Part shown: positions 4,573 to 20,228 of the stretch, one piece after another
Layout of the letters: each line of letters begins with the position of its first letter
Numbering within the stretch: position 1 is the first letter of the stretch
Origin: Faecalibacillus intestinalis
Lineage (GTDB): Bacteria > Bacillota_I > Bacilli_A > Erysipelotrichales > Coprobacillaceae
DNA length: 38,054 nucleotides
Assembly: GCF_003024685.1 (NCBI RefSeq)
Contig: NZ_PYLQ01000025.1
Coordinates: 1-38,054, forward strand
Reading direction: 5' to 3'
Program-made: the position numbers and the translations under genes
The notes under the pieces: generated by a model
What the model was told of the DNA's origin: nothing
The model's input: only the letters and a program-made list of their open reading frames with translations
Database searches by the model: none

Positions 4573-4592
4573 TAAATAAATTAATATTTAGA

Positions 4593-4626
4593 AGTGTTAC
4601 TTAGTTATCTAGGTAACACTTTTTTA
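4593..4626 (+). terminator. Terminator of the enoate reductase operon
   Basis: Perfect 8-bp stem AGTGTTAC / GTAACACT, 12-base loop, then a run of T. Confidence 0.88.
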
Positions 4627-4653
4627 TGCAAAAAATGCACATAAAACATGACA

Positions 4654-4717
4654 TTCACGCACGAAAAGTAGCTGTTTGTGAACGAAAATGGGAAATAGAG
4701 GGTATGAGTTATATAAT
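4654..4717 (+). promoter_or_regulatory. Activator-type promoter, copy 1 (21-bp period direct repeats plus TATAAT)
   Basis: Two 14-bp direct repeats, TTCACGCACGAAAA (4654-4667) and TTTGTGAACGAAAA (4675-4688), lie exactly 21 bp apart. After 23 bp comes TATAAT (4712-4717), with no good -35 box. A second copy with identical spacing lies at 9916-9979. This layout fits an activator that binds two adjacent sites on one DNA face, as LytTR-type response regulators do. The regulator is not identified in this window. It points at the broken ABC-3C locus. Confidence 0.6.
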
Positions 4718-4810
4718 AATATTAATATTTATATTTTATAACAAATAATAAAAGAAGTAAATTTTTATTATTAACTTATTTTTGAATATAAAAGAGAGGA
4801 GATTTGAAAA

Positions 4811-5217
4811 ATAGGTGACAAATATATAGGAACAAGAAATAATAAAATAAATATAAGGAAAGATGATCCTGATTTAGCTGCATATTTAAAAGAAAGAGCT
4901 TCAGTTACAGATGTAGATATTAGACTTTATCTTAGAGAGGTAAATTTTCATTGTCCTCTATGTTGTAAAGATTTACAAAGAAAAAGTCAAAAAAAAGAAG
5001 TGTAAAATTATTTGAAATAGCACATATCTATCCCAATAGCCCTACTGTAGAACAATATTTGGAATTAAAAGGCCTAGAACGTTTAGGAGATAATTCAGAA
5101 TCTTTTGATAATAAAATAGCTTTATGTAAGGACTGTCATAGCACAAAAGATTATCATACAACAAAAGAAGATTATTTAAAGTTAATAAAAAATCCAAATT
5201 TGTCAAAAAAATATTGA
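4811..5217 (+). pseudogene. HNH endonuclease of an ABC-three-component (ABC-3C) system, broken
   Basis: Frame one (from about 4811) reads GDKYIGTRNNKI and continues to NFHCPLCCKDLQRKSQK, then hits TAA at 5003. A shift at a run of eight A (4989-4996) restores RSVKLFEIAHIYPNSP and continues to NKIALCKDCHSTKDYH, ending at TGA 5215-5217. Together they give a zinc-binding HNH fold (CPLC ... EIAHIYPNSP ... LCKDCH) typical of the HNH effectors of ABC-3C defence loci. One extra A would repair the frame. At the expected start, behind GAGAGGAG, the codon is ATA instead of ATG. The C-terminal region is also missing. Three lesions make a dead gene likely; the homopolymer alone could be phase variation. 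Confidence 0.7.
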
Positions 5218-5762
5218 AAAGACACAATGAATTTAAAAGTAAAAAAGATGAATTGGAAATGAAAAATGATGCATATAACAAATTTATAGAATTAAAAAAT
5301 AATGAATCTATTGATAAAAAAAGAGTATCAAATATAAAAGATCAACAACTATCAATTCTTTCAAGTAAAATTAATATAGAAATGAATAGATTGAATAATA
5401 TAATTTATAAGGAAGAAAATAATGTACCAATTTTAAGTTTTTCAAAAAAAAATTATAGTTTTGCAACACCTGAAAATACAGGTACAGGTATAGCTTATAA
5501 GGGATTGGTTATATTTGATATTTCTGTTCTGAATTTGACTAATTTACCTATTATAGTGCATGACTCATTTGTTTTAAAACAAATATCGGATAAAGCATTT
5601 GAAAAAATATTAGAATTGTATATTAAAAGTGAAAAACAAGTAATAATAGCTATTGATAAAAAGAACTCGTATACAGACGAGACACAAAAAATATTAGATG
5701 AAAGTGTTATTTTAAATTTAGGTTCTAATGGAAATGAACTTTTTGGAAAATCGTGGGGATAG
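5214..5762 (+). pseudogene. C-terminal fragment of a DUF2326 ABC-type ATPase (ABC-3C system)
   Basis: The open frame of about 182 codons carries only the end of the ATPase: a coiled-coil stretch (MKRHNEFKSKKDELEMK, then about 60 helical residues), then PENTGTGIAYKGLVIFDI, NLTNLPIIVHDSFVLKQI, KQVIIAIDKKNSYTDETQ and LFGKSW. These match the signature/Walker B half of DUF2326 proteins, the SMC/RecN-like ATPases of ABC-three-component systems. The Walker A N-terminal half is missing, as is any middle component. The frame overlaps the stop of the HNH fragment in a different phase, so an internal deletion has probably joined the two genes. A non-functional remnant. Confidence 0.75.
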
Positions 5763-5767
5763 ACTAT

Positions 5768-5890
5768 GTGTTAAATTATGAATTTAAAGATATAAAAGAT
5801 AAATTATATGATGACTTGAATAGATTAATTAAAGCATTAGAAATTTATTTGTATCAGTATGTTAATAAAATAAATTGTGAAAAAAATTAA
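5768..5890 (+). CDS. Possible 40-aa ORF, unknown function
   Basis: GTG start 8 bases after GGGGA, reading VLNYEFKDIKDKLYDDLNRL and ending KINCEKN before TAA at 5888-5890. It is Lys/Asp/Leu-rich and probably helical. It follows the ATPase remnant by 5 bases. It may be a small accessory protein of the ABC-3C locus, a fragment of a larger gene, or chance. Confidence 0.3.
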   Translation: MLNYEFKDIKDKLYDDLNRLIKALEIYLYQYVNKINCEKN

Positions 5891-5937
5891 CAGATATACA
5901 AAAAATAATTGCCAAGGAGGAAATATGTAAAATATAA

Positions 5938-6492
5938 AGTTTTAATTATACGAATACAATAGAAAGAGTATATATAGATAAATCTAATATGGATATTGAC
6001 TTTATACATGGTAAAGCAAATAAAGATTTGGAAATTGAAAAAAATAATATGGTTTTGGGAATTGATGAATTTCTTCCGGCTGAAAAACAAAATATAAATG
6101 TTGAATTTGTGGAATTTAAAAAATTTTATCAAAGAATATATAAAGAGACAGGATGTAAGTATAAAAATTGGGTTGATGAAATAAAAAGTGAGCATTCATT
6201 ATATGTGAAAAAAATAGCGAAAGCAAATTTTTTGTATGATGAAGCTATGATATGCAAAAATTGTAAAAAACACAATTTATATATTTTTGGACACTCATTA
6301 GATGTCACAGATGGAGATATATTAAGAGACTTAATATTGAATGATAACGTAAGTACAACTATTTTTTATCATAATAAGGAAAATATGGGAAAACAAATTA
6401 CTAATTTAGTAAAAGTAGTTGGAGAAAATGAATTGATAGGAAGAACGGGAGGAAGTACTAGAACAATAAAATTTAAGTTACAAAAAAATTAG
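5938..6492 (+). pseudogene. AbiH-family abortive infection protein, 5'-truncated
   Basis: The open frame starts after a stop at 5935-5937 with SFNYTNTIERVY, then DFIHGKAN, MVLGIDEF and IFGHSLDVTDGDILRDLI. These are typical central and C-terminal motifs of AbiH proteins, which act in phage abortive infection. AbiH proteins are usually well over 300 residues; only about 184 remain. Upstream, a good SD (AAGGAGG, about 5914-5920) precedes an ATG at 5925 that is followed directly by TAA and is out of phase with the AbiH frame. This looks like the original start joined to the middle of the gene by a deletion. Translation from the internal ATG at 5989 would give a fragment of 167 aa. Confidence 0.72.
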
Positions 6493-6535
6493 TATAGATT
6501 TTTAATATTAACATTTTTAAAAGGAGGATATTATT

Positions 6536-7003
6536 ATGAAATTTGATAGAATAAATGTTAATCGTTTGGATGATATAGGTTATGTGATTGATAAAGAAAA
6601 ATTTTTAAAGTTTGTTAATGATTTCAGGATTATTGGTGTTCATTGGTCTCAACCTACAAATATTAGTGCTAGTTATTTTTTAAGATTATTACAAGATGGC
6701 TCAAAAGCACGAGCGCGTGGATTTGGAAAACAATCATATATTGAAAATGATGAATCATCAAATCAATTAAGTGAATTTTACGATAAATTATTTGATCACG
6801 GAGCATTATGGAAATTAGAAAATGGTAGAGTAATTTGTACAGCAATGCCATATAGTGATGAAAAAATTGTGCTTGATGAATTTGAAAGATTGAAGAATAA
6901 ATGTGAATATCCCGATGACGTGATATTAAATTTCTTAGATAAAAAATATAAATTTAGAAAAAATGGCGATATTATGGTTGTTATTTCGTTTGATGAAATT
7001 TAG
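6536..7003 (+). CDS. Unknown 155-aa protein in the defence island
   Basis: Complete gene with a strong SD (AAAGGAGG, 8 bases before ATG) and its own downstream terminator. It starts MKFDRINVNRLDDIGYVIDK, has a middle stretch GVHWSQPTNISASYFLRLL, an Arg/Ala patch SKARARGFGKQS and a mixed alpha/beta C-terminal half ending MVVISFDEI. No signal peptide, membrane segment or clear catalytic motif. I do not recognise the family. It lies 43 bases after the AbiH remnant, so it may have been a partner or may be an unrelated intact neighbour. Confidence 0.7.
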   Translation: MKFDRINVNRLDDIGYVIDKEKFLKFVNDFRIIGVHWSQPTNISASYFLRLLQDGSKARARGFGKQSYIENDESSNQLSEFYDKLFDHGALWKLENGRVICTAMPYSDEKIVLDEFERLKNKCEYPDDVILNFLDKKYKFRKNGDIMVVISFDEI

Positions 7004-7128
7004 ATTAGATAGATTAAAAATATTATTTTTTAAACAACTTAAATACTATAAAAATTTATGAAAAAAGCAATCTAAATAATCAAATACTTTAGTAAAAAAT
7101 CACTTTAAAATATCTGATACTTTTTAAA

Positions 7129-7177
7129 GAGGAAAATTAGATAAAGCAATTTCTGATTTTCCTCCTTTTATTTTTCT
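7129..7177 (+). terminator. Terminator after the 155-aa gene
   Basis: Stem GAGGAAAAT (7129-7137) / ATTTTCCTC (7156-7164), then CTTTTATTTTTCT. The gap 7004-7291 otherwise holds only AT-rich DNA with no reading frame I can support. Confidence 0.7.
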
Positions 7178-7291
7178 ATTTTACTTTTTATAGTTTACTC
7201 TAGAATTGCCTATACATTTGGAATTTATCCATGTAAAAGAGTTGAGTATTTCTTTTTTATGTCCAAACGTTTTTGTAATATTATTTTTAAT

Positions 7292-8085
7292 GTAAGCGCC
7301 AAATAAAATAGTGTATTTAAAGAAGTCGATTGAATTGATATAATAATCAATTTAGTCGGCTTTTATTTCAAATTCTTCTTTTATTTCTTCACTCCATGGT
7401 AAGAACCAGTCCAGTCTTTCTGGATCTTCAACCAGATCTTGTTGAGGTAAATAATCCAGGATGAATTCAATATAATCGTATGGATTAAGTTTATTGGATT
7501 TAGCTGTTTCAATCAGGCTGAATACTGATGCACTTGCTTCAGCTCCTTTAGTAGAAGTTGAAAACAGCCAGTTCTTTCGGCCAACTGTAAATGGTCTGAT
7601 TGTACGTTCATCTAATGAATTTGTTATAGGTACAAGACCATCTTCTAAAAATGAACGCAGTCCTGCCTCGTAATTCAAGGCATATTGTATAGTTTTTCCT
7701 GTCTTAGAAGCTGTTAACACCTTGTTTTGGTTATCCTTGTACCATGAAAAGAAGTCATCAACTAATGGCTTTGATTTTTCTTGACGTACTTTCACCTTTT
7801 TATCAGGTGATAATGTTTCGATTTGTTTTTCTATCGCAAACAGTCTGGCTATTTTTTCAACAGCTGTATTTGCGAGTGTATCTGATGCATTCTTCATATC
7901 TACAGGCAATGCATCATAGAACTTTCTTCTGGCATGCGCCCAACAGTAGGCATTGGTCACACCATCTATATGGTTATATCCATAATAGCCATCAGTGATG
8001 ATAGTACTCTCAAACCCTTTAAGAAATTCTTGAGGGTTGGTTGCATTTTTGTCAGGTCTGTAATCAAATATAGATAGGTTACACT
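7292..8085 (-). mobile_element. IS66-family insertion sequence remnant (one end plus 3' part of tnpC)
   Basis: The element begins at the inverted-repeat tip GTAAGCGCC (7292-7300), the hallmark terminus of IS66 elements. It contains the C-terminal part of the tnpC transposase on the minus strand. The other end, tnpA, tnpB and the 5' half of tnpC are gone; the right border is an abrupt switch into galU at about 8080-8090. The element is immobile as it stands. The first 57-59 bases of the end recur at 15453. Confidence 0.85.
7352..8085 (-). pseudogene. tnpC: IS66 TnpC transposase, C-terminal fragment
   Basis: Reading leftwards, the fragment of about 245 residues shows LSIFDYRPDKN, TIITDGYYGYN (a catalytic Asp region), AYCWAHARRKF and NSLDERTIRPFTVGRKNW, all typical of the IS66 DDE transposase core. 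The IS66 C-terminal domain follows (NPYDYIEFILDYLPQ). Full-length TnpC is about 500 residues, so half is missing. The frame stays open for another ~50 codons to 8239, but those run antisense through galU and are not transposase. Confidence 0.88.
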
Positions 8086-8615
8086 TCATTGGAGATGAAC
8101 CATTTGCTGTACTACTAGGAGATGATGTGGTTGTCAATAAAGAAGGGAAACCAGCATTAAAACAATTAATAGAACAATATGAAAAGACATCAGCATCAGT
8201 AATTGGAGTACAAACAGTCGATAAAAAAGATGTCAGCAAATATGGAATCGTAGAACCATCAAAATCACATCCAGCAAAGGGAAGACTGGTAAAATTAACA
8301 GATATGGTAGAAAAACCAGTAGTAGAGAAAGCACCAAGTCAACTAGCAGTCTTAGGAAGATATGTATTGACACCTGAAATCTTTGAACTTTTAGAAACAC
8401 AAGGAAAAGGAGCAGGAGGAGAAATCCAATTAACAGATGCCATTAAAAGATTATTAGATAGACAAGCAGTCTATGCGTATGATTTTGAAGGAAAGAGATA
8501 TGATGTAGGAGATAAATTTGGGTTTATCAAAGCAACAATCGATTTTGCATTAGACAGAGAAGACTTACATGATCAAGTAAGTAAACATATTCAAGATATT
8601 GTCAATAATAAGTAG
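8085..8615 (+). pseudogene. galU: UTP-glucose-1-phosphate uridylyltransferase, 3' part only
   Basis: From about 8085 the plus strand reads FIGDEPFAVLLGDDVVVNKE, then YGIVEP, APSQLAVLGRYVLTPEIF, GAGGEIQLTDAIKRL and YDVGDKFGFIKATIDFAL, the well-known second half of bacterial GalU/GtaB. About 176 of some 290 residues are left. The nucleotide-binding N-terminus is replaced by the IS66 transposase fragment on the opposite strand. No start codon or SD serves the fragment. An intact galU presumably exists elsewhere, as UDP-glucose is needed for envelope glycans. Confidence 0.9.
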
Positions 8616-8635
8616 TGATAGGAAGGTAATTTAAA

Positions 8636-9184
8636 TTGGATATATATCAAACGGTTATTTCTCATTATCCTCATTGGAGTAAAATAGAATTAATTGCTGT
8701 AGTTATAGTAATGATTATAAGTTTTATTATTTTAGAAAGATTTTATAAAAAAGATAAAATAAATAAAATACAAATGTTTTTTTGTGTTTTATTTATTATC
8801 TATTTATTGCATGTTTATGGATCTACTGTTTTTTCTAGATTACCAAGTAAAAGAATATGTAAGTTAGAAGTATTTTGGTCATGGAAAGAAATATTAAATT
8901 CAATGAATATGACATATCCAAAATATGAATTGTTCTTGGAGAATATATTAAATGTTATTATGCTTTTACCTTTAGGTATCTTTTTACCATTAGTATATGG
9001 TAAAAAGATAGATTGGAAGGTAGGTTTATTGATAGGTTTTTGTATTTCTTTTTCTATTGAATTGATGCAATTGGTTTTATGTAGAGGAATGTTTGATGTT
9101 GATGATATTATTCATAATAGTTTGGGTTTTTTAATAGGAATAGTGATTATTAACAAAGTATTGTTAATGAATAAAATAAGCTAG
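8636..9184 (+). CDS. VanZ-like integral membrane protein, copy 1
   Basis: A 182-aa protein starting at TTG behind AGGAAGG (9-base spacing). It has a membrane helix at about residues 17-35, another at 46-65, then NILNVIMLLPLGIFLPL, a helix at about 125-142 and the VanZ signature SIELMQLVLCRGMFDVDD followed by IIHNSLGFLIG. VanZ-family proteins sit in the membrane; the founding member gives low-level teicoplanin resistance, and the role of most members is unknown. It starts 20 bases after galU, so it probably belonged to that transcription unit. A close paralogue follows. Confidence 0.85.
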   Translation: MDIYQTVISHYPHWSKIELIAVVIVMIISFIILERFYKKDKINKIQMFFCVLFIIYLLHVYGSTVFSRLPSKRICKLEVFWSWKEILNSMNMTYPKYELFLENILNVIMLLPLGIFLPLVYGKKIDWKVGLLIGFCISFSIELMQLVLCRGMFDVDDIIHNSLGFLIGIVIINKVLLMNKIS

Positions 9185-9213
9185 CAGCTTTAAATTTAGA
9201 GCTGCTTTTTTTA
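9183..9213 (+). terminator. Terminator after vanZ-like copy 1
   Basis: AGCAGCT (9183-9189) pairs with AGCTGCT (9200-9206); TTTTTTT follows. It overlaps the stop codon. Confidence 0.85.
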
Positions 9214-9231
9214 TTTGATTTGAATTTTATG

Positions 9232-9274
9232 TTTACATTATTTGTATCTTGTACAATAATAAGATACAAATAAT
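9232..9274 (+). promoter_or_regulatory. Promoter overlapped by a 14-bp perfect palindrome (operator) before vanZ-like copy 2
   Basis: ATTATTTGTATCTT (9237-9250) and its exact reverse complement AAGATACAAATAAT (9261-9274) flank a 10-base loop. A weak promoter can be drawn through it: TTTACA at 9232-9237, 17 bp, AATAAT at 9255-9260. A dimeric repressor bound here would block transcription. There is no T-run, so an operator is more likely than a terminator. Confidence 0.55.
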
Positions 9275-9307
9275 GATGAACAACTAGGGTTGGCAGAAAG
9301 GAAAAAG

Positions 9308-9331
9308 TATATTGTATAAATATACAATATA
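9308..9331 (+). repeat. 10-bp perfect inverted repeat between SD and start of vanZ-like copy 2
   Basis: TATATTGTAT (9308-9317), AAAT, ATACAATATA (9322-9331). The SD-like AGAAAGGA (9295-9302) lies before the hairpin and the TTG start at 9347 after it, so in RNA the hairpin would sit inside the initiation region. Confidence 0.6.
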
Positions 9332-9346
9332 TTAGTAGTTAAAGCA

Positions 9347-9895
9347 TTGGATATATTTCAAACCATTATTTCTCATTATCCTAAATGGAGTAAAATAGAA
9401 TTAATAACTGTAATCATTGTAATGATCATCAGTTTAATCATATTAGAAAGTTATTATAAAAAGAATAAGATAACTAAAACACAAATGTGTTTTAGTATCT
9501 TATTTATTATTTATCTTTTACATGTTTATGGATCAACAGTATTTTCTAGATTACCAAGTACTAGAAAATATCAACTAGAAGTATTTTGGTCATGGAAAGA
9601 GATTATTCATCCTATAGGGAGATTAGGAACAGCTTCTAGATATGATTTGTTGTTGGAAAATATATTAAATATTGTTATGCTGTTACCAATTGGTATTTTT
9701 TTACCATTAGCATATGGTAAAAAGATAGATTGGAAGGTAGGATTATTGATAGGTATTGGTATTTCTTTTTCTATTGAGTTATTGCAATTAGTTTTATGTA
9801 GAGGTTTATTTGAGTTTGATGATATTATTCATAATAGTTTAGGTTTTTTAATAGGTATATTGATAAGTAATAGAATATTAAGAAAAAAGTTGTAA
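9347..9895 (+). CDS. VanZ-like integral membrane protein, copy 2
   Basis: A 182-aa close paralogue of the protein encoded at 8636; both begin at TTG and share SHYP(H/K)WSKIELI, LLHVYGSTVFSRLPS, EVFWSWKE, YGKKIDWKVGLLIG and DDIIHNSLGFLIGI. The VanZ signature is SIELLQLVLCRGLFEFDD. The loop between the second and third membrane helices differs most (IGRLGTASRYDLL against MNMTYPKYELF). It has its own promoter with a palindromic operator, so it is regulated separately from copy 1. A tandem duplication is the simplest origin. Confidence 0.85.
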   Translation: MDIFQTIISHYPKWSKIELITVIIVMIISLIILESYYKKNKITKTQMCFSILFIIYLLHVYGSTVFSRLPSTRKYQLEVFWSWKEIIHPIGRLGTASRYDLLLENILNIVMLLPIGIFLPLAYGKKIDWKVGLLIGIGISFSIELLQLVLCRGLFEFDDIIHNSLGFLIGILISNRILRKKL

Positions 9896-9915
9896 ATAAA
9901 AGTAAATATATGTCG

Positions 9916-9979
9916 TTCACGTACGAAAAGTAGTCATTCGTGAACGAAAACAGTAAATAGATAACACAAGTTGTATAAT
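9916..9979 (+). promoter_or_regulatory. Activator-type promoter, copy 2 (21-bp period direct repeats plus TATAAT)
   Basis: Direct repeats TTCACGTACGAAAA (9916-9929) and TTCGTGAACGAAAA (9937-9950) with 21-bp period, then 23 bp to TATAAT (9974-9979). The geometry equals the copy at 4654-4717, and the region up to the -10 is also alike (AAATAG, AGTT before the -10). It points at the truncated AAA ATPase at 10050. Confidence 0.6.
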
Positions 9980-10005
9980 AATAGGTGTTATCTATTTCTT
10001 TTTTT
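9955..10005 (+). terminator. Terminator of vanZ-like copy 2, overlapping the promoter
   Basis: 13-bp stem AAATAGATAACAC (9955-9967) / GTGTTATCTATTT (9985-9997) with a 17-base loop, then CTTTTTTTAT. The -10 box lies in the loop, so transcripts from the local promoter start past the left arm and cannot form the hairpin. Confidence 0.75.
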
Positions 10006-10049
10006 ATAGAAATAAGAGCAAATATATGTAAAAGATTAGGAGGTTAAAT

Positions 10050-10277
10050 ATGAACCTAAAAAAATTTAAATTAACAAATTTAAGAAAATTTACAGAGAAT
10101 AATAATGAAATAAATTTTGCATTAACGAGTGACTATGGTGAAGATGTAAATATTGCTCCTAAAACAACATTGATTATAGGACAAAATAATGGTGGAAAAA
10201 CAACAGTTATTGAGGCTTTGAAAAGAGTTATAAATGGTATTGATTTAAAAGCAGAAGATTTTAATTTTGATTATTGA
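10050..10277 (+). pseudogene. AAA/RecF-like ATPase, N-terminal fragment
   Basis: Good SD (AGGAGG) and ATG, then MNLKKFKLTNLRKFTEN and a Walker A loop IIGQNNGGKTTVIEAL at about residues 42-57. The frame stops at residue 75 after DFNFDY. The rest (coiled coil, Walker B, any TOPRIM domain) is absent, and the next ~95 bases carry no continuation in any frame that I can see. The start resembles OLD/RecF-type ATPases of defence systems such as the Gabija or ABC-3C classes, but which one cannot be decided from 75 residues. Confidence 0.7.
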
Positions 10278-10372
10278 TATTTGAGTAATGGTACTTAATA
10301 ATAAACATTTTATGAGTTAATGATTACATTGAAAGAAATATGTAGTTTATTTTAAAATATGAATATTAAAAA

Positions 10373-12631
10373 GTGAAAGATGGTGCAATTGCTTTGAAAA
10401 TAGATGATTTGATGCAAAAAATAGATTTAAATTTACTAAATGAAGAAATGTGTATAAAACTAAAAAATCAAAAAGTGGAATTATCGAATAGAGATAAGAA
10501 GTATTTATTAAACTTTTTTACTTATTATAAATCAGGAATAAAAGAAAATATATTAAAGGCAATAGTATGTTTTGCAATTTGGGAACCCGATGAAGCTATC
10601 AATCAAGCTAGGAAAAAAGGAGTGTTTCGTTATAGGGTATTTGGAAATAATACCAAAACAAAAGCGCGATATTATTTGGAATATTTAATTCTTAAGAAAG
10701 ATATACTATGTTTTTCAAGAGAAACAAATAAATATTTGAAACAAAAATATGAGTTTGTGTGGCTAGAACATTTTTATATTGAAACAGAGAAGAAGATAGA
10801 TAAGGAGATTAGATATCATTACAAAAGAAAAATAAAAAAGAAAATCAATGGAATCAGATTTGAATCTTCTTTACACAAGGAATTGTTAGCTTATATAGAT
10901 AGAATTTTTTTATTAGAGGAACAAAAGCAAACGAAACAAGATGGTAATTACAATATATTAAGTACATTTTCACAAGAAGAAAAAGCAGAAGGGATTTCAT
11001 ATTTATTTTTTAAATATATTCAGAAATATGAAATATCACCGGAAAAGAATTATATTGTAGATGCTACATATATAAATTCAAATAAAATTGAAAAGCTTAT
11101 TCTGCTTGCTTGTCAAATTAATTATGTTTTAGAAATGGAACTTCTTATAGATTTCTATGATTATGATATATATTACGAAGGGAAAAATATTATTTTAAGA
11201 AATAAGGATGAAACACTTGAAAAAAGTGTTCAACTAGGATATATAATGCAGAAAATGCAAAGTATTTTGTTTTTTGATAGAAGATATAGTGGTCATAAAG
11301 AATATGATTGTTTAGAAACTATTAGTAGACAAATAGTACAGAAATTTGGCAATAAAATAGGCAAACGTGTTGGTAATGAATTGTTGACACGTTATATATT
11401 TGAAATACCTACTGTTTTATTGAAAAAAATGTCTGAACAGAATATTGAAGGAAAAGTACAATTTTACAAAGAAGAAGGAGTTGAATTGGAACATTTTTCT
11501 AAGGAAATGTGTATGAGTTTAAATCAGTTATATGAAAAAAAAGTTACACAAAATTGTAATGCTTATGATATTCTTCTTAGTCAACGATTTTTTAGAATAA
11601 TATATTTTATCCAAAAAAATTTTTATCAAAATGAGAAAGATATAAATGTTATTGTACAATCTTTAATTCCTTCGATAGATAGAGAAATATTGAAAAAAAT
11701 TCTTTTTATGTTTCTAAAGAATAAGCAAAAGGTAGATGAAATATATGATTTATTATCTTATGATAAAAACTATAAATTCGATATACAATATACACCATTT
11801 TTTGAAACTGGTAAAAAAGTGATATTTCCAATATCTGTAATGGCTAATTCAAATCTAATGAGAAATACAATCGCATATTCCTATCTTTCAAAAAATAAAA
11901 TAGTAAATGATAATAATGGAATTGAACCACTTGTAAAGCTGTGTGAAAATTATTTTAGACAGTGTTCTTATGAGTATGAAATATTTATAAATAAAAATTA
12001 TAAGTATAAAGGAAAAAGTGGAGAAATAGATGTTTTAGTTGTTTCAAATTCAGATTTAATTATTATTGAGTGTAAAGATCCATTAATGCCAACGAGTAAT
12101 TTTGAAATGAGATCTACGTTTGAGCATATTGAGAAGGCGCAAAAACAATTAGACCTATCTAAAAAAGCATTTGAGGACAATGGATTTAGAAATAAATTTT
12201 TTAGAGATAGTCTACATATAGATGCAAAATACAGAAATATTTATACATGTGTAGTATTAGGAAATAGATTGTTTTCTATTTGGTCAGGAGTAAGACATCC
12301 TATTAGGAATATACATGAATTAGATATGATATTAAATAGTGGTATAATAAATTCAACATTTGCAAAGTGGAGTATTTGGAAAGGGGAAAAATATTCACAC
12401 GAAGATTTGATTGATTTTTTAAAGCAAGATGGTGTATTTATAAAAATTATGCAAGACTCTATGGAGGCTTTTGATAATAAATTAACTTTTGCAGGTAAAA
12501 CGATACAATATGAATCTTATATGTTAAATATGAAAAAATTATTTTTAATTTGTGATGATAAATTAAGATTAATAGAGAAAAGAAAAAATAAATGTGATGA
12601 ATTTTTTGATATTAATGAAGAAAAAAATTAG
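10373..12631 (+). CDS. 752-aa protein with C-terminal PD-(D/E)XK nuclease-like site, otherwise unknown
   Basis: Large Lys/Glu/Ile-rich protein. Residues 1-520 are mostly helical and unrecognised; no P-loop is seen. At 550-569 comes GEIDVLVVSNSDLIIIECKD, a textbook Asp553-x12-Glu566-x-Lys568 active site of PD-(D/E)XK nucleases. The site is preceded by YEYEIFINKNYKYKGKSGEI and followed by a helix EHIEKAQKQLDLSKKAF, as in Mrr/NERD-like folds. The GTG at 10373 lacks a clear SD and has an in-frame TAA two codons before it, so the N-terminus may be lost; the first in-frame ATG (codon 14) also lacks an SD. It lies between a truncated ATPase and a dGTPase. It could be a DNA-targeting effector. Confidence 0.65.
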   Translation: MKDGAIALKIDDLMQKIDLNLLNEEMCIKLKNQKVELSNRDKKYLLNFFTYYKSGIKENILKAIVCFAIWEPDEAINQARKKGVFRYRVFGNNTKTKARYYLEYLILKKDILCFSRETNKYLKQKYEFVWLEHFYIETEKKIDKEIRYHYKRKIKKKINGIRFESSLHKELLAYIDRIFLLEEQKQTKQDGNYNILSTFSQEEKAEGISYLFFKYIQKYEISPEKNYIVDATYINSNKIEKLILLACQINYVLEMELLIDFYDYDIYYEGKNIILRNKDETLEKSVQLGYIMQKMQSILFFDRRYSGHKEYDCLETISRQIVQKFGNKIGKRVGNELLTRYIFEIPTVLLKKMSEQNIEGKVQFYKEEGVELEHFSKEMCMSLNQLYEKKVTQNCNAYDILLSQRFFRIIYFIQKNFYQNEKDINVIVQSLIPSIDREILKKILFMFLKNKQKVDEIYDLLSYDKNYKFDIQYTPFFETGKKVIFPISVMANSNLMRNTIAYSYLSKNKIVNDNNGIEPLVKLCENYFRQCSYEYEIFINKNYKYKGKSGEIDVLVVSNSDLIIIECKDPLMPTSNFEMRSTFEHIEKAQKQLDLSKKAFEDNGFRNKFFRDSLHIDAKYRNIYTCVVLGNRLFSIWSGVRHPIRNIHELDMILNSGIINSTFAKWSIWKGEKYSHEDLIDFLKQDGVFIKIMQDSMEAFDNKLTFAGKTIQYESYMLNMKKLFLICDDKLRLIEKRKNKCDEFFDINEEKN

Positions 12632-12734
12632 TACTACTCTTTAAAAGATACTGTAATTATTTTCCATTTGGTTAAGAAAATAAGTATTTCATAAGCATTT
12701 TAGCAAAATAATAAGATTTTAATCATTAAAATTC

Positions 12735-12767
12735 TATAATAAAATATAAGTCAATAAAAAGAGAGGG
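12735..12767 (+). promoter_or_regulatory. Likely -10 box and SD for the dGTPase operon
   Basis: TATAAT at 12735-12740, 40 bases upstream of the ATG, and AGAGGG at 12762-12767 as SD with 7-base spacing. No convincing -35 box is seen. Confidence 0.45.
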
Positions 12768-12774
12768 TTATAAG

Positions 12775-14256
12775 ATGGATTGGAGTAATTTATTAACAAC
12801 AGAAAGATTTTCTGAAAATGGAAATCGTTTTTCAAAAAATGACACAAAAAAAGAATACAGTTTTAAAAAGTATAATCGAGGAAATTTTACATGTATTGAT
12901 GATGATTATCAAACAATTATTAGAAGTGCTTCTTTTAGAAGATTACAAGATAAAACACAAGTCTTTCCACTAGAAAAAAATGACTTTGTAAGAACACGAC
13001 TTACTCATTCAATAGAAACATCAGCCATTGCTAAAAAATTAGGGAATATGGTACTTGCAAATATATCTTTAGAAATAAATAAAAATAATAATAGTTATAA
13101 AGACTATCAAAAAAATAAAGAAGAAATGAGTACGATTCCCGATTTACTTGCGTGTGCAGGGTTAATTCATGATATAGGTAATCCACCATTTGGGCATTTT
13201 GGTGAGGTTGTTATGTCTGATTGGTTTAAAGATAATATAAAACATTTAAAATATAAAGGAAATAAATTAGAAGATATATTTACACAACAACAACTAGAAG
13301 ATTTATATCATTTAGATGGTAATGCTCAAGCATTACGAGTTGTAGGGAAACTGCATGATTTACATAATGAAAGTGGAATGAATCTAACAAAATCTTTGTT
13401 AAATATACTTGTAAAGTATCCTGTTAAATCTACAGAAATAGATAAAGATTCAGATGATATTAAATATCATAAATTAGGATACTATGCATCGGATTTTGAT
13501 ATGTTTGATGACATTGCTCGAACAACTGGTACAAAATTATCAGATGATGAATATGTAAGACATCCACTTACTTATTTGCTAGAAGCTGCAGATGACATTG
13601 CTTATGCTACAGCTGATATAGAAGACGGATTAAAAAAGAATTATATAAGTGTTCAAGATTTTATAAATATTTTTGAACAAATTGTTGATGAAACAGATGA
13701 GAAAAATTATCCATTATTACAAAGTTTAAAAGAACAAATAAAAAATGACAGTCAAAATGAATTACAGATAATACAGGAATGGTTAGACAATGTAAGAGAT
13801 TGGTTGGAATATAATGCAGTTTATAGTTTTACATCTAATTATAATGTTATTATGAAGGGAAACTATGCAAAAGAATTATTAAATGGAGTTTATAATGAAA
13901 ATATATTAAAAGTTCTTAAAGCAGTTGCAAATGAATATTTATTTGCTAATAAAGAAATTAATAAAGTAGAATTATCAGGATCGGTAATATTGGAATTTTT
14001 ATTAAGTAAGTTTGTAGGAGCTATATTGGAATACGATGAAGATGATATAAAAGTGACAAAAGAAAATAAGAAAATTATCGGCTTATTATCTCAAAATCAT
14101 TTGAATGTCTATAATCGAGAAAAAGAAAAATGTACCACAGAAGGAGATAAAGTCTATTTAAAATTACACTTGGTTATTGATTATATTTCAGGAATGACAG
14201 ATAGTTATGCTAAAAGACTTTGCCAAGAATTAAGAGGAGTTACATTTTTTGAATAA
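12775..14256 (+). CDS. dgt: HD-domain dGTP triphosphohydrolase (dGTPase), putative defence role
   Basis: A 493-aa cytoplasmic enzyme of the dGTPase family, which splits dGTP into deoxyguanosine and triphosphate. The HD metal site is complete: His78 (RTRLTHSIETS), His132-Asp133 (GLIHDIGNPPFGHFGE) and the late Asp in EAADDIAYATADIEDG (273/274). The family N-terminal motif IIRSASFRRLQDKTQVFP is at 48-65. Length is typical of the long E. coli-type class. It is 17 bases upstream of a DUF2971 gene, in one operon. dGTPases can deplete dNTPs during phage infection; the island context and unusual partner favour that role over housekeeping. Codons are AT-rich like the rest of the island. Confidence 0.88.
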   Translation: MDWSNLLTTERFSENGNRFSKNDTKKEYSFKKYNRGNFTCIDDDYQTIIRSASFRRLQDKTQVFPLEKNDFVRTRLTHSIETSAIAKKLGNMVLANISLEINKNNNSYKDYQKNKEEMSTIPDLLACAGLIHDIGNPPFGHFGEVVMSDWFKDNIKHLKYKGNKLEDIFTQQQLEDLYHLDGNAQALRVVGKLHDLHNESGMNLTKSLLNILVKYPVKSTEIDKDSDDIKYHKLGYYASDFDMFDDIARTTGTKLSDDEYVRHPLTYLLEAADDIAYATADIEDGLKKNYISVQDFINIFEQIVDETDEKNYPLLQSLKEQIKNDSQNELQIIQEWLDNVRDWLEYNAVYSFTSNYNVIMKGNYAKELLNGVYNENILKVLKAVANEYLFANKEINKVELSGSVILEFLLSKFVGAILEYDEDDIKVTKENKKIIGLLSQNHLNVYNREKEKCTTEGDKVYLKLHLVIDYISGMTDSYAKRLCQELRGVTFFE

Positions 14257-14273
14257 GTGAGAGGATAAATAGA

Positions 14274-15398
14274 ATGAATAAAAATATAGAAAATTTATAT
14301 CATTATACCAATGTAGAGGGATTTAAAAGTATTATAGAAAATCATTATTTTAGGTTATCAGAATCATCATTTTTAAATGATCCAGATGATTGTAAATTGT
14401 TTAATGATTTTTTAGTAAAAAATATAGATTGCCCAAAGAAATTGATTGTATCAAGTGGAGTTAAAAAGTTGATAGATTATGAGAATGAAATTTTAGAAAT
14501 TTATAAAAAATGTTCTTTTGAAGACTATGTAAAATATTTAGAAAAACATATTAAATTATACGTTATGTCTTTTTCAAGTGTAGCAGATGATTTAACAATG
14601 TGGAATTATTATGGGAAAGGAGGATTTTCTTTAGAAATATCAAAAGATCAATTGATTCAAGTAATGAAAAATACTTTAAAAGAAAATGATGAATATTTTA
14701 CTATTTCTAATGTGATTTATTCTGAAAAAGATAAATGTGCTCCAATTCCTAATTTTAATAATTTTCATTTATTTAGTAAAAAGAGTAATGATCTTTTAAA
14801 AGAAAATGAAAAAAATAGAAAAGAAAAGGCAAATAAGGAAGATATAAAAAATCTTTTTGAAGAAAATGATTTAGAAACATTTATTTACATATATTATAAG
14901 GGTTATCTTTTATCGTTGGAGTACTTATTAGAAAGTAAAGAGATATCTATTGAAGATGATCAGGAAACGATATGTAAAGCAGTATTTAAAAATACAAAAG
15001 ATTTTGAAATAAAAAATAGAAATATGTTATGGAAAAGAGATCTTTCATTATTTATGATATTATTATCATCATTAATTAAAAGTAACTCCTATGAAAGTGA
15101 AAATGAAATAAGAATTGTATATTTTAAATATGATAATGAAAATAAAGAAAATGAAAACATTGATTATTACATAAAACATACACCATTTGGTAATTTATTA
15201 AGTCCATATATTTCTTTAAAAGGAAGTAATGAAGAATTTAATGATATCATAGAAAAAATCATTATCTCACCAGCTACTAAAAATTTACCAATAAATATAA
15301 ATATGTATAAAAATACATTAAAGGAATATTTATTATCGAAAAAATATTATAAATCATCTAAATCAATTAGTTATTCTAAACATAATATACGTTGGTAA
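14274..15398 (+). CDS. DUF2971-domain protein, partner of the dGTPase
   Basis: 374 aa, SD GAGAGGA before the ATG, 17 bases after dgt. The N-terminal region shows the DUF2971 pattern: NLYHYTNVEGFKSIIENHYF, then SSFLNDPDDCKLF at about 32-44, and YVMSFSSVADDLTMWNYYGK near 97-116, followed by GGFSLEISKD. The middle is a long Lys/Glu-rich helical insertion. The C-terminal part has ESENEIRIVYFKYD and ends SKHNIRW. The molecular function of DUF2971 is not settled; members often occur singly in accessory DNA. Co-transcription with a dGTPase suggests a sensor or modulator, which is inference. Confidence 0.8.
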   Translation: MNKNIENLYHYTNVEGFKSIIENHYFRLSESSFLNDPDDCKLFNDFLVKNIDCPKKLIVSSGVKKLIDYENEILEIYKKCSFEDYVKYLEKHIKLYVMSFSSVADDLTMWNYYGKGGFSLEISKDQLIQVMKNTLKENDEYFTISNVIYSEKDKCAPIPNFNNFHLFSKKSNDLLKENEKNRKEKANKEDIKNLFEENDLETFIYIYYKGYLLSLEYLLESKEISIEDDQETICKAVFKNTKDFEIKNRNMLWKRDLSLFMILLSSLIKSNSYESENEIRIVYFKYDNENKENENIDYYIKHTPFGNLLSPYISLKGSNEEFNDIIEKIIISPATKNLPININMYKNTLKEYLLSKKYYKSSKSISYSKHNIRW

Positions 15399-15691
15399 TA
15401 CATATCATATGAATTAGAAATATAGTAATTAATTATAATAACTGTCTTTTTAGTAAGCACCAAATAAAATAGTGTATTTAAAAAAGTTAATTGAATTGAT
15501 ACAATGATATAAAATTTAAAGCTATAATCTGGTGTATAGCTATATTTTCATTGTTTTAATTTGTACATACAAGCAATAAAAAATGGAGGATGCTCTTATT
15601 TTGAAAAACTTAATGTATTAACGCGTCATATTTTTAATGTTACCAATGAAGATGATGTTTTAAAGTTAATTAACTGAATAATATATTATAT
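15399..15691. other. Non-coding gap with mobile-element debris
   Basis: Contains the solo IS66 end (15453-15511) and then a short hairpin AGCTATA (15520-15526) / TATAGCT (15535-15541) followed by T-rich DNA. A weak frame near 15608 reads EKLNVLTRHIFNVTNEDDVL and stops soon after (LKLIN). That frame has no usable start or SD and I do not recognise it; it is probably the tail of a lost gene. Confidence 0.4.
15453..15511 (+). repeat. Solo IS66 terminal sequence, direct repeat of the end at 7292
   Basis: GTAAGCACCAAATAAAATAG and what follows match the IS66 end at 7292 almost base for base for 57-59 bases (differences GCG/GCA, AGAAG/AAAAG, CGA/TAA and near the edge), in the same orientation, and then diverge. 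No transposase is attached. Confidence 0.8.
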
Positions 15692-15733
15692 GAAAAGGAT
15701 AAACATATCTTAAATACGATGTTTATCCTTTTC
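15692..15733. terminator. Long hairpin at the end of the helicase gene
   Basis: Perfect 15-bp stem GAAAAGGATAAACAT (15692-15706) / ATGTTTATCCTTTTC (15719-15733), 12-base loop. It spans the helicase stop on the minus strand; the T-runs are weak on both sides. Confidence 0.65.
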
Positions 15734-17264
15734 TATCTATTTTATGTATTTCATCTATTAAATCTTGAATTTCTTTTGGATAAGTTTCTAGTACTTTTTT
15801 ACCGAGTTCATAAATAAGATTATCTTTGTTTTTAGATGAACCAATATGATAAAAATCTTTGACTTCTTGACTACAAATTAAATTCTCTTGTCTTAATTGA
15901 TTAATTAAACAAAGACCTTCAATAGATTTAACACGACTTAAGGCTACGTATAGTTGACCGTTATCAAATGAATAGGGGATTAAATTGACTTGATCATAAG
16001 TTTGTCCTTGACTTTTATGCATTGTAATAGCATAAGCAAGCTTTAAAGGTATTTGATAAAAAGCACCTACTTTTTCTTTAGATAGTTGATGATCTTCAAT
16101 ATCTCCATCTTTCTTTTTAGACAAAACATAATTTTCTATAGCCCATTCATGATATCCAAAAGTAACTAATGTTTTATTTGTATCAAGCATAACTGTTACA
16201 CAATCATCTTCTAATTTATATACTTTTCCAAATGAACCATTTTGATATAAATCTTGTTCAGTATCATTAATTAGTACCATTACTCTAGCTCCTATTTTTA
16301 GATGAAGTTCATCTAAAGTAGGTTTATCAGAATTTTTAACATCTCCTACTATTCTAGAATGATAGACTTTAGCTTTATTGGGTAACTTAGAGAGTTTATC
16401 TTGATTGATTTGTTCTGCTTTTTTATTAGTAGCAGTTAAAATAATTCCATTTTCAAAAAGTTCTTTTTGACTATGAGTATTAAAATAACTTACACAAGAA
16501 TAGTCACCTATTCTTGCTTTATTAAGTTCATGAACAAATTCAGGATCCTTTTGTCTAATAACTTCTTTTAATTCAACTGTTTGAAAATCTAAATCTTTCC
16601 AATTTGTAGATTCAAAAGCGTAGCCTTTATGATAATGTTCATATATTTTTTCTAAAACTTCACGATCATTATCAGTAGTAACTGGAGGAAGTTGAAAGAA
16701 ATCACCAACTACAACTATTTGTTTACGAGATAAAGATTTTTCTTCTGCCTTAGTAATTGTTCTTACAACAAAATCAAAAAGATCAACACGACACATACTG
16801 ATTTCATCTATAATGATAATATCGCTTTCTTGTACAACTTGAGGTACTTTTTGGATATGTTTAATAACTTGTGGCTCAGGGGATACTTGAAAACATCTAT
16901 GAATAGTTACACCTTGGATATTAATAGCAGCAATACCTGTAGGAGCACAGACAATTACTTTTTTATTTTGTTTTTCCATTTCACTGATAAATAATTTTAA
17001 AACAAATGATTTACCTGTTCCTGCACCACCGGTTAAAAAGATATTTTTACCTGATATTAATTGGTTATAGGCATTATATTGATCTTTACTAAGTGATGGT
17101 TTATCTGTTTTTTGAGTATTTTCATTTAAATAGTTCCAAGCTTCTTCTTTAGAAGTAAAACTTTTAAATTGCGCATTTTTAAACTGATTTACTTCATTTT
17201 GACATTCTTCCCAAGTATTATAAATACCAGGATGTCTTCCTTTTTTTACAGCATAATATTTCAT
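15723..17264 (-). CDS. RNase H1 N-terminal domain fused to Pif1/RecD2-like DNA helicase
   Basis: 513 aa. Residues 1-47 (MKYYAVKKGRHPGIYNTWEE ... FTSKEEAWNYL) are the hybrid/dsRNA-binding domain found at the N-terminus of RNase H1. Then a superfamily 1 helicase: Walker A FLTGGAGTGKSF (79-86 core), Walker B IIIDEISM, motif III VVVGDFFQLPPV, and C-terminal MHKSQGQTYDQV and YVALSRVKSIEGL. It probably unwinds DNA or RNA-DNA hybrids. I chose the ATG at 17264 because AAGGAG lies 8 bases before it. An upstream in-frame start at 17351 has no SD and would extend into the fucO promoter region. Divergent from fucO. Confidence 0.82.
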   Translation of the reverse strand: MKYYAVKKGRHPGIYNTWEECQNEVNQFKNAQFKSFTSKEEAWNYLNENTQKTDKPSLSKDQYNAYNQLISGKNIFLTGGAGTGKSFVLKLFISEMEKQNKKVIVCAPTGIAAINIQGVTIHRCFQVSPEPQVIKHIQKVPQVVQESDIIIIDEISMCRVDLFDFVVRTITKAEEKSLSRKQIVVVGDFFQLPPVTTDNDREVLEKIYEHYHKGYAFESTNWKDLDFQTVELKEVIRQKDPEFVHELNKARIGDYSCVSYFNTHSQKELFENGIILTATNKKAEQINQDKLSKLPNKAKVYHSRIVGDVKNSDKPTLDELHLKIGARVMVLINDTEQDLYQNGSFGKVYKLEDDCVTVMLDTNKTLVTFGYHEWAIENYVLSKKKDGDIEDHQLSKEKVGAFYQIPLKLAYAITMHKSQGQTYDQVNLIPYSFDNGQLYVALSRVKSIEGLCLINQLRQENLICSQEVKDFYHIGSSKNKDNLIYELGKKVLETYPKEIQDLIDEIHKIDRKG

Positions 17265-17334
17265 GATATCACTCCTTGTTTCTATTATGACATATTTATA
17301 GCTTTTTGTAATGGGATAAAAATGATATAAAACT

Positions 17335-17395
17335 TGTGAAATGTTACACATAGCCTTATGTGTAACTTGTTTTTATTTTCACATGATACTAAAAT
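17335..17395 (+). promoter_or_regulatory. fucO promoter with upstream palindromes (possible Rex site)
   Basis: TTGTTT (17367-17372), 17 bp, TAAAAT (17390-17395) form the promoter. Just upstream, GTTACACATA (17343-17352) / TATGTGTAAC (17357-17366) is a perfect inverted repeat. Overlapping it, TTGTGAAATGTTACACAT (17335-17352) resembles the Rex operator TTGTGAA-N4-TTCACAA. NADH-sensing control would suit an NADH-dependent reductase. The Rex assignment is tentative. Confidence 0.45.
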
Positions 17396-17425
17396 ATGTG
17401 TAGTTAGAAAAGAGGAGATTTAATT

Positions 17426-18571
17426 ATGGCAAACAGATTTGTATTAAATGAAACAAGTTATCATGGAAAAGGAGCAATTGAATCAATTCCTGAAGAAGCA
17501 AAAGCAAGAGGATTCAAAAAAGCTTTAGTATGTTCAGATCCAGACTTAGTAAAATTTGGAGTAACAGCAAAAGTTACTGATTTATTAGATAAAGCAGGAT
17601 TAGCTTATGAACTATATTCTAATATCAAACCGAATCCAACAATTGAAAATGTTCAACAAGGTGTTAAAGCATTACATGATGCTGGAGCAGATTATATGAT
17701 TGCTATTGGTGGTGGTTCATCAATGGATACAGCAAAAGCAGTAGGTATTATTGATAAAAACCCTGAATTTGCTGATGTAAGAAGCTTAGAAGGTGTTGCA
17801 CCAACTAAAAATCCTTGTACACCAATTTTCGCTGTTCCTACAACAGCTGGTACTGCTGCTGAAGTAACAATCAACTATGTAATCACAGATGTTGAAAAAG
17901 ATCGTAAAATGGTATGTGTAGACGTACATGATATTCCAGTTGTAGCATTCGTTGACCCAGATATGATGTCATCAATGCCAAAAGGATTAACTGCTGCTAC
18001 AGGTATGGATGCCTTAACTCATGCTATCGAAGGTTATATTACTAAAGGTGCTTGGGAAATGTCAGATATGTTCCATATCAAAGCTATTGAAATTATTTCT
18101 AAATCATTAAGAGGTGCAGTAGAAAATACTCCTGAAGGTAGAGAAGGTATGGCTTTAGGTCAATATGTTGCAGGTATGGGATTCTCTAACGTAGGTTTAG
18201 GATTAGTTCACTCAATGGCTCATCCACTTGGAGCTTTATATGATACACCTCATGGTGTTGCTAATGCTATCATCTTACCAACAGTTATGGAATATAATGC
18301 ACCATATACTGGTGAAAAATATAAAGACATTGCAGAAGCAATGGGTGTAGATACTACTGGTATGTCTCAAGAAGAATATCGTAAAGCAGCTGTAGATGCA
18401 GTTAAACAATTATCTAAAGATGTTGGTATTCCAGCTGACTTAAAAGAAATCGTTAAAGAAGAAGATTTACAATTCTTAAGTGAATCTGCTTTAGCTGATG
18501 CTTGCTGTCCAGGTAATCCAAGAGATACAAGTGTAGAAGAAATCAAAGAATTATATAAATCATTATTATAA
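17426..18571 (+). CDS. fucO: Lactaldehyde reductase / 1,2-propanediol oxidoreductase (iron-dependent alcohol dehydrogenase)
   Basis: 381 aa, group III Fe-dependent alcohol dehydrogenase. The sequence follows E. coli FucO throughout: MANRFVLNETSYHGKGA, GADYMIAIGGGSSMDTAKA (NAD site), VPTTAGTAAEVTINYVITD, TGMDALTHAIEGYITKGAW and YVAGMGFSNVGLGLVHSMAH. Metal ligands are Asp195, His199, His262 and His276. It reduces lactaldehyde to 1,2-propanediol with NADH during anaerobic use of fucose or rhamnose, or acts on similar aldehydes. No fucose genes adjoin it, so it is a single-gene unit between its own promoter and terminator. SD AGAGGAG. Confidence 0.92.
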   Translation: MANRFVLNETSYHGKGAIESIPEEAKARGFKKALVCSDPDLVKFGVTAKVTDLLDKAGLAYELYSNIKPNPTIENVQQGVKALHDAGADYMIAIGGGSSMDTAKAVGIIDKNPEFADVRSLEGVAPTKNPCTPIFAVPTTAGTAAEVTINYVITDVEKDRKMVCVDVHDIPVVAFVDPDMMSSMPKGLTAATGMDALTHAIEGYITKGAWEMSDMFHIKAIEIISKSLRGAVENTPEGREGMALGQYVAGMGFSNVGLGLVHSMAHPLGALYDTPHGVANAIILPTVMEYNAPYTGEKYKDIAEAMGVDTTGMSQEEYRKAAVDAVKQLSKDVGIPADLKEIVKEEDLQFLSESALADACCPGNPRDTSVEEIKELYKSLL

Positions 18572-18578
18572 TAATAAG

Positions 18579-18605
18579 ACAGTCCTCAATGAGGGCTGTT
18601 TTTTT
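18579..18605 (+). terminator. fucO terminator
   Basis: ACAGTCCTC / GAGGGCTGT stem (one G-T pair), 3-base loop, then T6. Confidence 0.9.
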
Positions 18606-18656
18606 GTTTTAAAATGTAAAAAAAAAGAGAATTTTGTTATTAATTTCACAATAAAG

Positions 18657-18684
18657 TTGACTTTTTATGAGGTTTCAATATAAT
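18657..18684 (+). promoter_or_regulatory. Promoter of the NSS transporter
   Basis: TTGACT (18657-18662), 16 bp, TATAAT (18679-18684). Confidence 0.75.
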
Positions 18685-18713
18685 TTTTTTATATGTTAAA
18701 AAGGGGAAATTCG

Positions 18714-20069
18714 ATGGAAACAAATAAAAAATCAAGTTTTTCAGGCCGTTTAGGATATGTTATGGCGGCTGCTGGCTCAGCTGTTGGATTAGGAAACATT
18801 TGGCGTTTTCCATATCTTGCGGCTAAATATGGTGGAGGTACTTTTTTATTTACTTACATTATTTTAGCGTTTACAGTTGGTTTTGCTTTACTTGTAAGTG
18901 AAACAGCATTAGGAAGAAAGACCGGAAACAATCCAATCAAAGCATATAAAATCTTAGGAGCAAAAAAATTAAAGATTGGTGGTTGGTTGAATTCAATTAT
19001 TCCAATGTTGATAATTCCTTATTACTGTGTTGTTGGTGGTTGGGTATGTAAATACTTATTTGAATATTTAAGAGGATCAAGTCAAATCTTGACACAAGAT
19101 ACCTATTTTTCAAATTTTATTGCTAATCCAATTAGTCCAGCTTTTTGGTTAGTTGTTTTTGCAGTATTAACTTTTATTGTGGTTATTAAAGGGGTAGAAA
19201 AAGGAATAGAAAAGGTAAGTAAGATTTTAATGCCTATTTTAGTAGTAATAGCTATTTTTATTTCAATCTATGGTTTAATGACACCAGGAGCAATTGAAGG
19301 TTTGAAGTATTATATTATTCCTGATTTTTCAAGGTTTAGTATTATGACAGTTATTTCAGCAATGGGACAAATGTTTTATTCTTTATCAATTGGAATGGGT
19401 ATTTTATTTACATATGGTTCTTATATGAAAAAAGATGTTGATATGGAAAAAGCAATTTCTCAAGTAGAAATTATGGACACTTTAATTGCTTTTTTAGCGG
19501 GGTTAATGATTATTCCTGCAGTCTTTGCATTTTCAGGAAAAGATAGTTTAAATGCTGGAGCGTCTTTAATGTTTATTACAATGCCTAAAGTTTTTAATTC
19601 ATTAAAATTAGGTGGATTTATAGGTGGGGTATTCTTTTTACTTGTCTTATTTGCTGCTTTAACTTCAGCTATTTCTTTAATGGAATGTTCTTGTGCAACA
19701 TTGATGGAACAATTCCATATTTCTAGAAAAAAAGCAGCTTTAGCAATGATTATTGAAATGTTAGCTTTAGGAATTCCTATTTCACTTGGCTATGGTGTTT
19801 TAGGATGGATTCAACCATTAGGAATGACTTTATTAGATTTCTTTGATTTTGTCACAAATTCATGTATGATGCCAATTTCAGCGTTATGTACAGTTTTATT
19901 AATTATTTTTGTAACAAAATTAAAAACAATTTCAAATGAAATTAAAATATCATCTGCTTTTAAAAGAGAAAAAGTCTATAATATTGTGATGAAATATATT
20001 TGTATTCCAACATTATTAATTATTTTATTAAGTTATATTTTATCAACATTTGGAATTATTACGTTATAA
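18714..20069 (+). CDS. Sodium-dependent transporter, NSS/SNF family
   Basis: 451 aa, about 11-12 membrane helices. The first helix carries the NSS hallmark GSAVGLGNIWRFPYLAAKYG, which builds the Na+ and substrate sites; further family features are LLVSETALGRKTG, PYYCVVGGWVCKYL and MGQMFYSLSIGMGILFTYGS. It is a bacterial LeuT/Tyt1/MhsT-like symporter that should import an amino acid with Na+; the substrate is not readable. I start it at 18714, seven bases after AAGGGG; the in-frame ATG at 18693 has no SD. Monocistronic, with promoter and terminator. Confidence 0.88.
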   Translation: METNKKSSFSGRLGYVMAAAGSAVGLGNIWRFPYLAAKYGGGTFLFTYIILAFTVGFALLVSETALGRKTGNNPIKAYKILGAKKLKIGGWLNSIIPMLIIPYYCVVGGWVCKYLFEYLRGSSQILTQDTYFSNFIANPISPAFWLVVFAVLTFIVVIKGVEKGIEKVSKILMPILVVIAIFISIYGLMTPGAIEGLKYYIIPDFSRFSIMTVISAMGQMFYSLSIGMGILFTYGSYMKKDVDMEKAISQVEIMDTLIAFLAGLMIIPAVFAFSGKDSLNAGASLMFITMPKVFNSLKLGGFIGGVFFLLVLFAALTSAISLMECSCATLMEQFHISRKKAALAMIIEMLALGIPISLGYGVLGWIQPLGMTLLDFFDFVTNSCMMPISALCTVLLIIFVTKLKTISNEIKISSAFKREKVYNIVMKYICIPTLLIILLSYILSTFGIITL

Positions 20070-20096
20070 AAAAGCTTTTTTAAGCTTTTTTCTTTT
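20068..20096 (+). terminator. Terminator of the NSS transporter
   Basis: AAAAAAGCTT / AAGCTTTTTT with TTTT loop, followed by CTTTTT; overlaps the stop codon. Confidence 0.8.
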
Positions 20097-20100
20097 TGGA

Positions 20101-20122
20101 CATAAAAAAGACATTTTTTATG
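20101..20122. repeat. 9-bp perfect inverted repeat upstream of rodZ
   Basis: CATAAAAAA / TTTTTTATG around GACA, ten bases after the transporter terminator. It may be a second-strand terminator or a binding site; nothing decides it. Confidence 0.4.
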
Positions 20123-20158
20123 TATATAATATATTAGAAATAAAATGAGCTTTTGTAT

Positions 20159-20186: not shown

Positions 20187-20228
20187 TTATTTGTTTAATT
20201 ATGCCTAAGTGTAAAGGAGGATGTCTTT

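Follow-up and report, generated by a model that had tools for sequence, protein, structure and literature searches.

A PRK01096-type dGTPase gene and a DUF2971 gene predicted to encode an ADP-ribosyltransferase-like fold lie 17 nt apart in a species-specific island of Faecalibacillus intestinalis

In the window, which is the whole 38,054-nt stretch of Faecalibacillus intestinalis contig NZ_PYLQ01000025.1 analyzed here, an intact gene for an HD-domain dGTPase is closely followed by an intact gene for a DUF2971 protein. We tentatively favor the explanation that these are horizontally acquired, co-transcribed accessory genes, most likely serving phage defense, with each protein acting alone, that is, two separately working defense-type genes over one dedicated machine. 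A defense role for both is suggested by their genomic context and by the dGTPase and ADP-ribosyltransferase (ART) families to which the proteins belong or are likened. The most useful new point of the analysis is the prediction of an ART-like fold for the DUF2971 protein.

The gene pair and its island

The dGTPase gene (12775..14256, + strand; 493 aa, ATG start, PRK01096 type) and the DUF2971 gene (14274..15398, +; 374 aa, ATG start) are both intact open reading frames, and both proteins align end to end with their relatives. A Shine-Dalgarno-like sequence precedes each gene, that of the DUF2971 ATG being AGAGGA at the 17-nt intergenic gap (14257..14273, +). This same-strand spacing implies co-transcription, as we expect, and the initial annotation of a complete HD dGTPase and a DUF2971 gene in a tight operon holds. 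The GC contents of the two genes (26% for the dGTPase, 20% for DUF2971) are both below the window mean of 28.8%. A −10-like TATAAT at approximately 12736 may account for the start position given in that annotation; a promoter and terminator scan found sites no more often than chance and missed this TATAAT.

To either side, window positions 543–4572 and 17335–22505 are collinear with a sister species (G012) at 86–87% identity by blastn, and the intervening 12.8 kb (4573..17334) is replaced there by approximately 1 kb with a GGDEF fragment. Because the flanks of the sister species are collinear without the 12.8 kb, the insertion that carries the pair is specific to this species. Searches of the five other species in the genus turned up no DUF2971 and no close relative of the dGTPase. 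The insertion contains fragments of defense genes (a DUF2326 piece, an AbiH C-terminus, and a 75-aa N-terminus of an AAA ATPase), an IS66 transposase remnant, a GalU-like nucleotidyl-transferase fragment, and a split HNH-like frame, the latter read by eye. "Island of broken defense genes," beside IS66 debris, is a fair label for 4573–17334, much as the initial annotation had it. The site left of a fucO-like gene, at the 4573/17334 boundary, varies among species of the genus (L338, L339, L342), carrying the island, the GGDEF fragment, a gene for a 1792-aa protein, or other genes, and is possibly an integration hotspot.

Several other features accompany the pair. An intact gene for a 752-aa NERD-domain protein (10373..12631, +; PF08378, 23.8 bits) ends 143 nt upstream of the dGTPase gene and has eight distant relatives on plasmids; whether it shares a transcript with the dGTPase and DUF2971 genes is uncertain. 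VanZ-like genes form a tandem duplicate (8636–9184 and 9347–9895; 84–86% DNA identity), and a PIF1-type helicase that bears an RNase H1 domain at its N-terminus (15723–17351, −), also in the island, is absent from five sister species. A repeat search found that sequence adjoining the IS66 remnant (7292–7347) has a second copy (89%) at 15453..15508, which starts 55 bp past DUF2971. These direct repeats, 8161 bp apart, bracket the galU fragment, the VanZ pair, and the NERD, dGTPase, and DUF2971 genes, and possibly mark a recombination or mobilization boundary.

Family, phylogeny, and ligand sites of the dGTPase

The dGTPase exceeds the cut-offs of NF002205 (456 bits versus 439) and TIGR01353 (318 versus 152) and matches Pfam HD and HD_assoc; against NF041026, the anti-phage dGTPase model, it scores 184 bits, under the cut-off of 400. 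The initial annotation had allowed that this might be the sole housekeeping dGTPase of the species, which it is not: the genome has two further, distant TIGR01353 genes (at C1, beside ftsE/X-like genes, and at C34), so the window dGTPase is an accessory copy. Genes of the C1 kind are present in most genomes of the family that were sampled. We rejected the PADLOC "dGTPase" match as a sign of defense, since a Listeria gene located before rpsL scores higher (257 bits) than the window gene (227 bits).

In a tree of 32 proteins, a starred clade (99/97) joins the window dGTPase to stand-alone dGTPases from Listeria (the rpsL-preceding gene), G006, G047, G058, G066, and G067, plus a divergent one from G444; the closest neighbor of the window protein is that of G066 (92/95). 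Another starred group, apart from this one, holds most of the CloA-type proteins; two others that also have CloB neighbors (L118 and L116) lie elsewhere in the tree. The phylogenetic check thus groups the window protein with stand-alone dGTPases and not with most CloA. At L102:6616–9041, the G066 dGTPase gene follows a KilA-N gene at a distance of 62 nt, and KilA-N is possibly another dGTPase partner there.

The Clover system consists of the dGTPase CloA and the nucleotidyltransferase CloB (PMC12265719), and we mapped the residues of Salmonella CloA described in that report onto the window protein using phmmer and MAFFT alignments, in which N-terminal positions are aligned less surely. All six catalytic positions are identical, with H78, H132, D133, H141, and E144 present, and both the HD metal ligands and the HE dyad are kept. 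All five dGTP contacts are identical as well, as are seven of the nine dTTP contacts (R47, D61, K256, S418, N420, T449, and Y452), although this dTTP site is largely common to housekeeping dGTPase relatives too; the two changed positions are Q172, replaced by H, and A444, a main-chain contact, replaced by Y. Mutation of Y452 abolishes CloA activity (PMC12265719). By contrast, the p3diT-binding arginines R29/R34/R38 of CloA correspond to K/D/T in the MAFFT alignment and N/D/T in the phmmer alignment, and the p3diT-site loop of the window protein carries an extra stretch of residues. As R38 is kept in most of the dGTPases compared and is T here, the inhibitor pocket may serve a partner instead. 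Judged from these residues, the window dGTPase would be able to sense dTTP and not p3diT, and the mapping suggests that a dTTP gate may be common to stand-alone PRK01096-type dGTPases without a p3diT site. The best PDB matches of the protein, 9p8s-v, are presumably the CloA entries of the Clover paper.

Predicted fold of the DUF2971 protein and distribution of both families

The DUF2971 protein matches PF11185 at 25.7 bits (gathering cut-off 22) and also phrog_1762; the literature mention of DUF2971 that we found is a genome reannotation. An AlphaFold2 model built from a 62-sequence alignment reached a pLDDT of 74 and a pTM of 0.74, with a core above 90, an earlier two-sequence model having been useless (pLDDT 33). 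In a Foldseek search with this model, DarT1 was the top PDB match, at an E value of only 0.33, with KptA next among ARTs. Structural realignment with VIA-align placed DarT highest (7omx, Z 7.8 over 135 residues at 3.6 Å; 7yk3, Z 7.6), followed among ARTs by KptA (6.4), DarT1 (6.0), and pertussis S1 (4.6); all 11 matches with Z of at least 4.5 are ART folds and the next, unrelated match scores 2.4, with every DUF2971 match in the zone below Z 8 where chance arrangements occur. A BFVD fold search gave no match at E 0.001, and PF14487 (DarT) was not among the Pfam matches at the same threshold. At the profile level, hhalign against DarT aligned the N-terminal YHYT..I motif (P 0.0015, probability 17%).

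Ten positions are invariant across the 62 DUF2971 sequences (H10, Y11, N35, D36, W110, Y149, K269, E276, E278, and R280), an invariance that is partly circular for the first four, as the viral set was chosen by its YHYT..ND pattern, and not for the others. ARTs carry a catalytic glutamate at the start of the strand that follows the ARTT-like loop, together with a His/Arg that binds NAD. By the secondary structure of the model, E276-x-E278-x-R280 lies at the start of a strand after a loop-helix, and H10 too is suitably positioned for such a putative role. Taken together, the model makes it plausible that DUF2971 has an ART-like fold nearest to DarT. If this prediction is true, the broad DUF2971/phrog_1762 family, found in bacteria and many viral contigs, joins the ADP-ribosyltransferases, and DUF2971 becomes testable as an anti-phage or counter-defense enzyme. 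We rejected a CloB-type nucleotidyltransferase identity for DUF2971 (hhalign probability 0.2% against the CloB profile). DarT genes (PF14487) occur in the sister species G012 (L343) and in a family member, G022 (L344), the window genome giving no match in the same search.

We then looked for the pair elsewhere. Approximately 106 distinct DUF2971 proteins were drawn from viral contigs, Bacilli genomes, and various other loci, with flanks whose lengths ran from a few hundred bases up to 9 kb, and among them a dGTPase was found only at the window. When both families were sought in 344 Bacilli genomes, the sole pair was again that of the window, and in 72,556 plasmids no place covered both. No DUF2971 lies beside the stand-alone dGTPase relatives. 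A DNA pattern running from the dGTPase C-terminus across the gap to YHYT returned 105 viral stretches, and in the 80 that were read neither gene was found by HMM save for one unrelated DUF2971. Most of this searching was done in Bacilli, plasmids, and viral contigs, together with one narrow scan of an 84,980-species genome collection. Within that scope the pair occurs in this strain only, the outcome that the initial annotation had named as counting against its claim, and nothing points to a conserved dGTPase–DUF2971 system. A literature search likewise found no named dGTPase–DUF2971 system, which agrees with that annotation. The closest DUF2971 relative (30% identity), which has the same long helical insert as the window protein, stands alone in a Thomasclavelia MAG, and DUF2971 genes in viral contigs showed no enrichment for membrane-protein partners (neighbors with TM helices, 16/97 versus 82/616 in the background).

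Other partners of dGTPases were seen in viral contigs and plasmids. Of 21 dGTPase loci in viral contigs, 6 have a CloB-type gene directly downstream of the dGTPase, and Clover systems, in which the dGTPase is followed by a nucleotidyltransferase with the GG..R..D.D motif, were found in viral contigs at L108, L113, L114, L116, L117, and L118 and on a Phaeobacter plasmid at L257. A family of small proteins adjoins dGTPases of two clades in two viral contigs (L120:6525–7232, +; L109:4036–4686, −); these two are 34% identical to each other and have no Pfam match. An IMG/VR scan with patterns derived from the same two returned those members only; a Salinivibrio plasmid carries a third, which has no dGTPase close by. 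We rejected this family as a second ART-like partner, its similarity to DarT being weak (probability 4.6%) and one of its three members having no dGTPase nearby, but it remains a lead.

Competing explanations and relation to known systems

In the explanation by separate action, the dGTPase is a dGTP triphosphohydrolase predicted to be gated by dTTP, as for CloA: phage takeover of dNTP synthesis would raise dTTP, which would switch on the enzyme and so deplete dGTP; the window dGTPase would do this without the p3diT brake of Clover. The DUF2971 protein, with a DarT-like ART fold and its putative catalytic residues kept, would modify nucleic acid or protein using NAD+. We infer the enzymatic activities, dTTP gating, use of NAD+, target, and independence of the two proteins from sequence, model, and context. 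Separate action accords with the solitary closest DUF2971 relative, with the solo dGTPase relatives that lack DUF2971, and with the single occurrence of the pair, but the 17-nt gap and the joint survival of the two genes would also fit a dedicated pair. A true two-gene system with Clover-like logic, in which the dGTPase serves as effector and is held off until infection by DUF2971 acting as brake or sensor, for example by ADP-ribosylation, seems to us somewhat unlikely. Such a system would explain why two co-directional genes with no room for a separate promoter stayed intact amid fragments, and the brake role is vacant, the p3diT arginines being lost and CloB missing from the window; partnered dGTPases are also common, as the viral loci with CloB downstream illustrate. 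Against it stand the lack of a second example in the Bacilli genomes, plasmids, and viral contigs searched, the unrelatedness of DUF2971 and CloB, and the partnerless dGTPases of the same clade. Since interacting genes can exist as a singleton, absence elsewhere lowers the two-gene claim without ending it. Of the two-gene defense system originally proposed, what survives is a pair of intact, co-directional genes in a decayed defense island, with the catalytic residues of the dGTPase kept; conservation of the pair found no support in the genomes, plasmids, and viral contigs searched. A more specific version, which we regard as improbable, has an ART-fold DUF2971 replacing CloB and restraining or arming a dTTP-gated dGTPase by NAD+-dependent modification, a Clover-like arrangement without a nucleotide second messenger whose p3diT site decayed because the brake is now protein modification. 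Were the genes to cooperate, they would constitute a dNTP-depleting defense with a regulator other than a nucleotide-signal synthase.

It is similarly improbable that the dGTPase is a transferred dNTP-homeostasis enzyme and DUF2971 an unrelated passenger, neither being anti-phage. Relatives do occur in ordinary chromosomal contexts, such as before rpsL in Listeria, and are scattered in Erysipelotrichales, and the PADLOC ranking of the Listeria gene above that of the window points the same way; however, the island around the window copy is species-specific and contains defense fragments, and the genome already has two other dGTPase-family genes. Least probable of all is a three-gene operon: the NERD gene is intact and on the same strand, yet the 143 nt that separate it from the dGTPase gene are ample for a promoter, and no NERD relative was found near a dGTPase or DUF2971 in the fetched loci. 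We retain separately acting, co-transcribed accessory genes as the favored, if tentative, explanation.

Several known systems share parts of this locus. Like the ART of CmdTAC, an mRNA ADP-ribosyltransferase defense against phage, DUF2971 would be an ADP-ribosyltransferase in phage defense, a likeness in described function, and the partner genes of CmdTAC (PMC11618068) differ from those of the window. DarT, the toxin of DarTG (PF14487), is the top structural match of the DUF2971 model and shares the aligned N-terminal YHYT..I motif, but DUF2971 is only about 10% identical to it, has the long helical insert, and adjoins no DarG-like gene that we could see. With the stand-alone anti-phage dGTPases (NF041026; Tal et al. 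2022, as cited in PMC12265719) the window protein shares an HD dGTPase domain with intact catalytic residues, differing in being of the PRK01096/NF002205 type and in having a co-directional partner gene. Clover resembles the locus in having a second gene closely after the dGTPase, and the window dGTPase keeps the catalytic and dGTP-contact residues of CloA and most of those for dTTP activation; unlike Clover, the partner here is DUF2971 and not a CloB nucleotidyltransferase, for which an HMM found nothing in the window, the p3diT arginines of CloA are lost, and the dGTPase does not belong to the clade that holds most CloA-type proteins.
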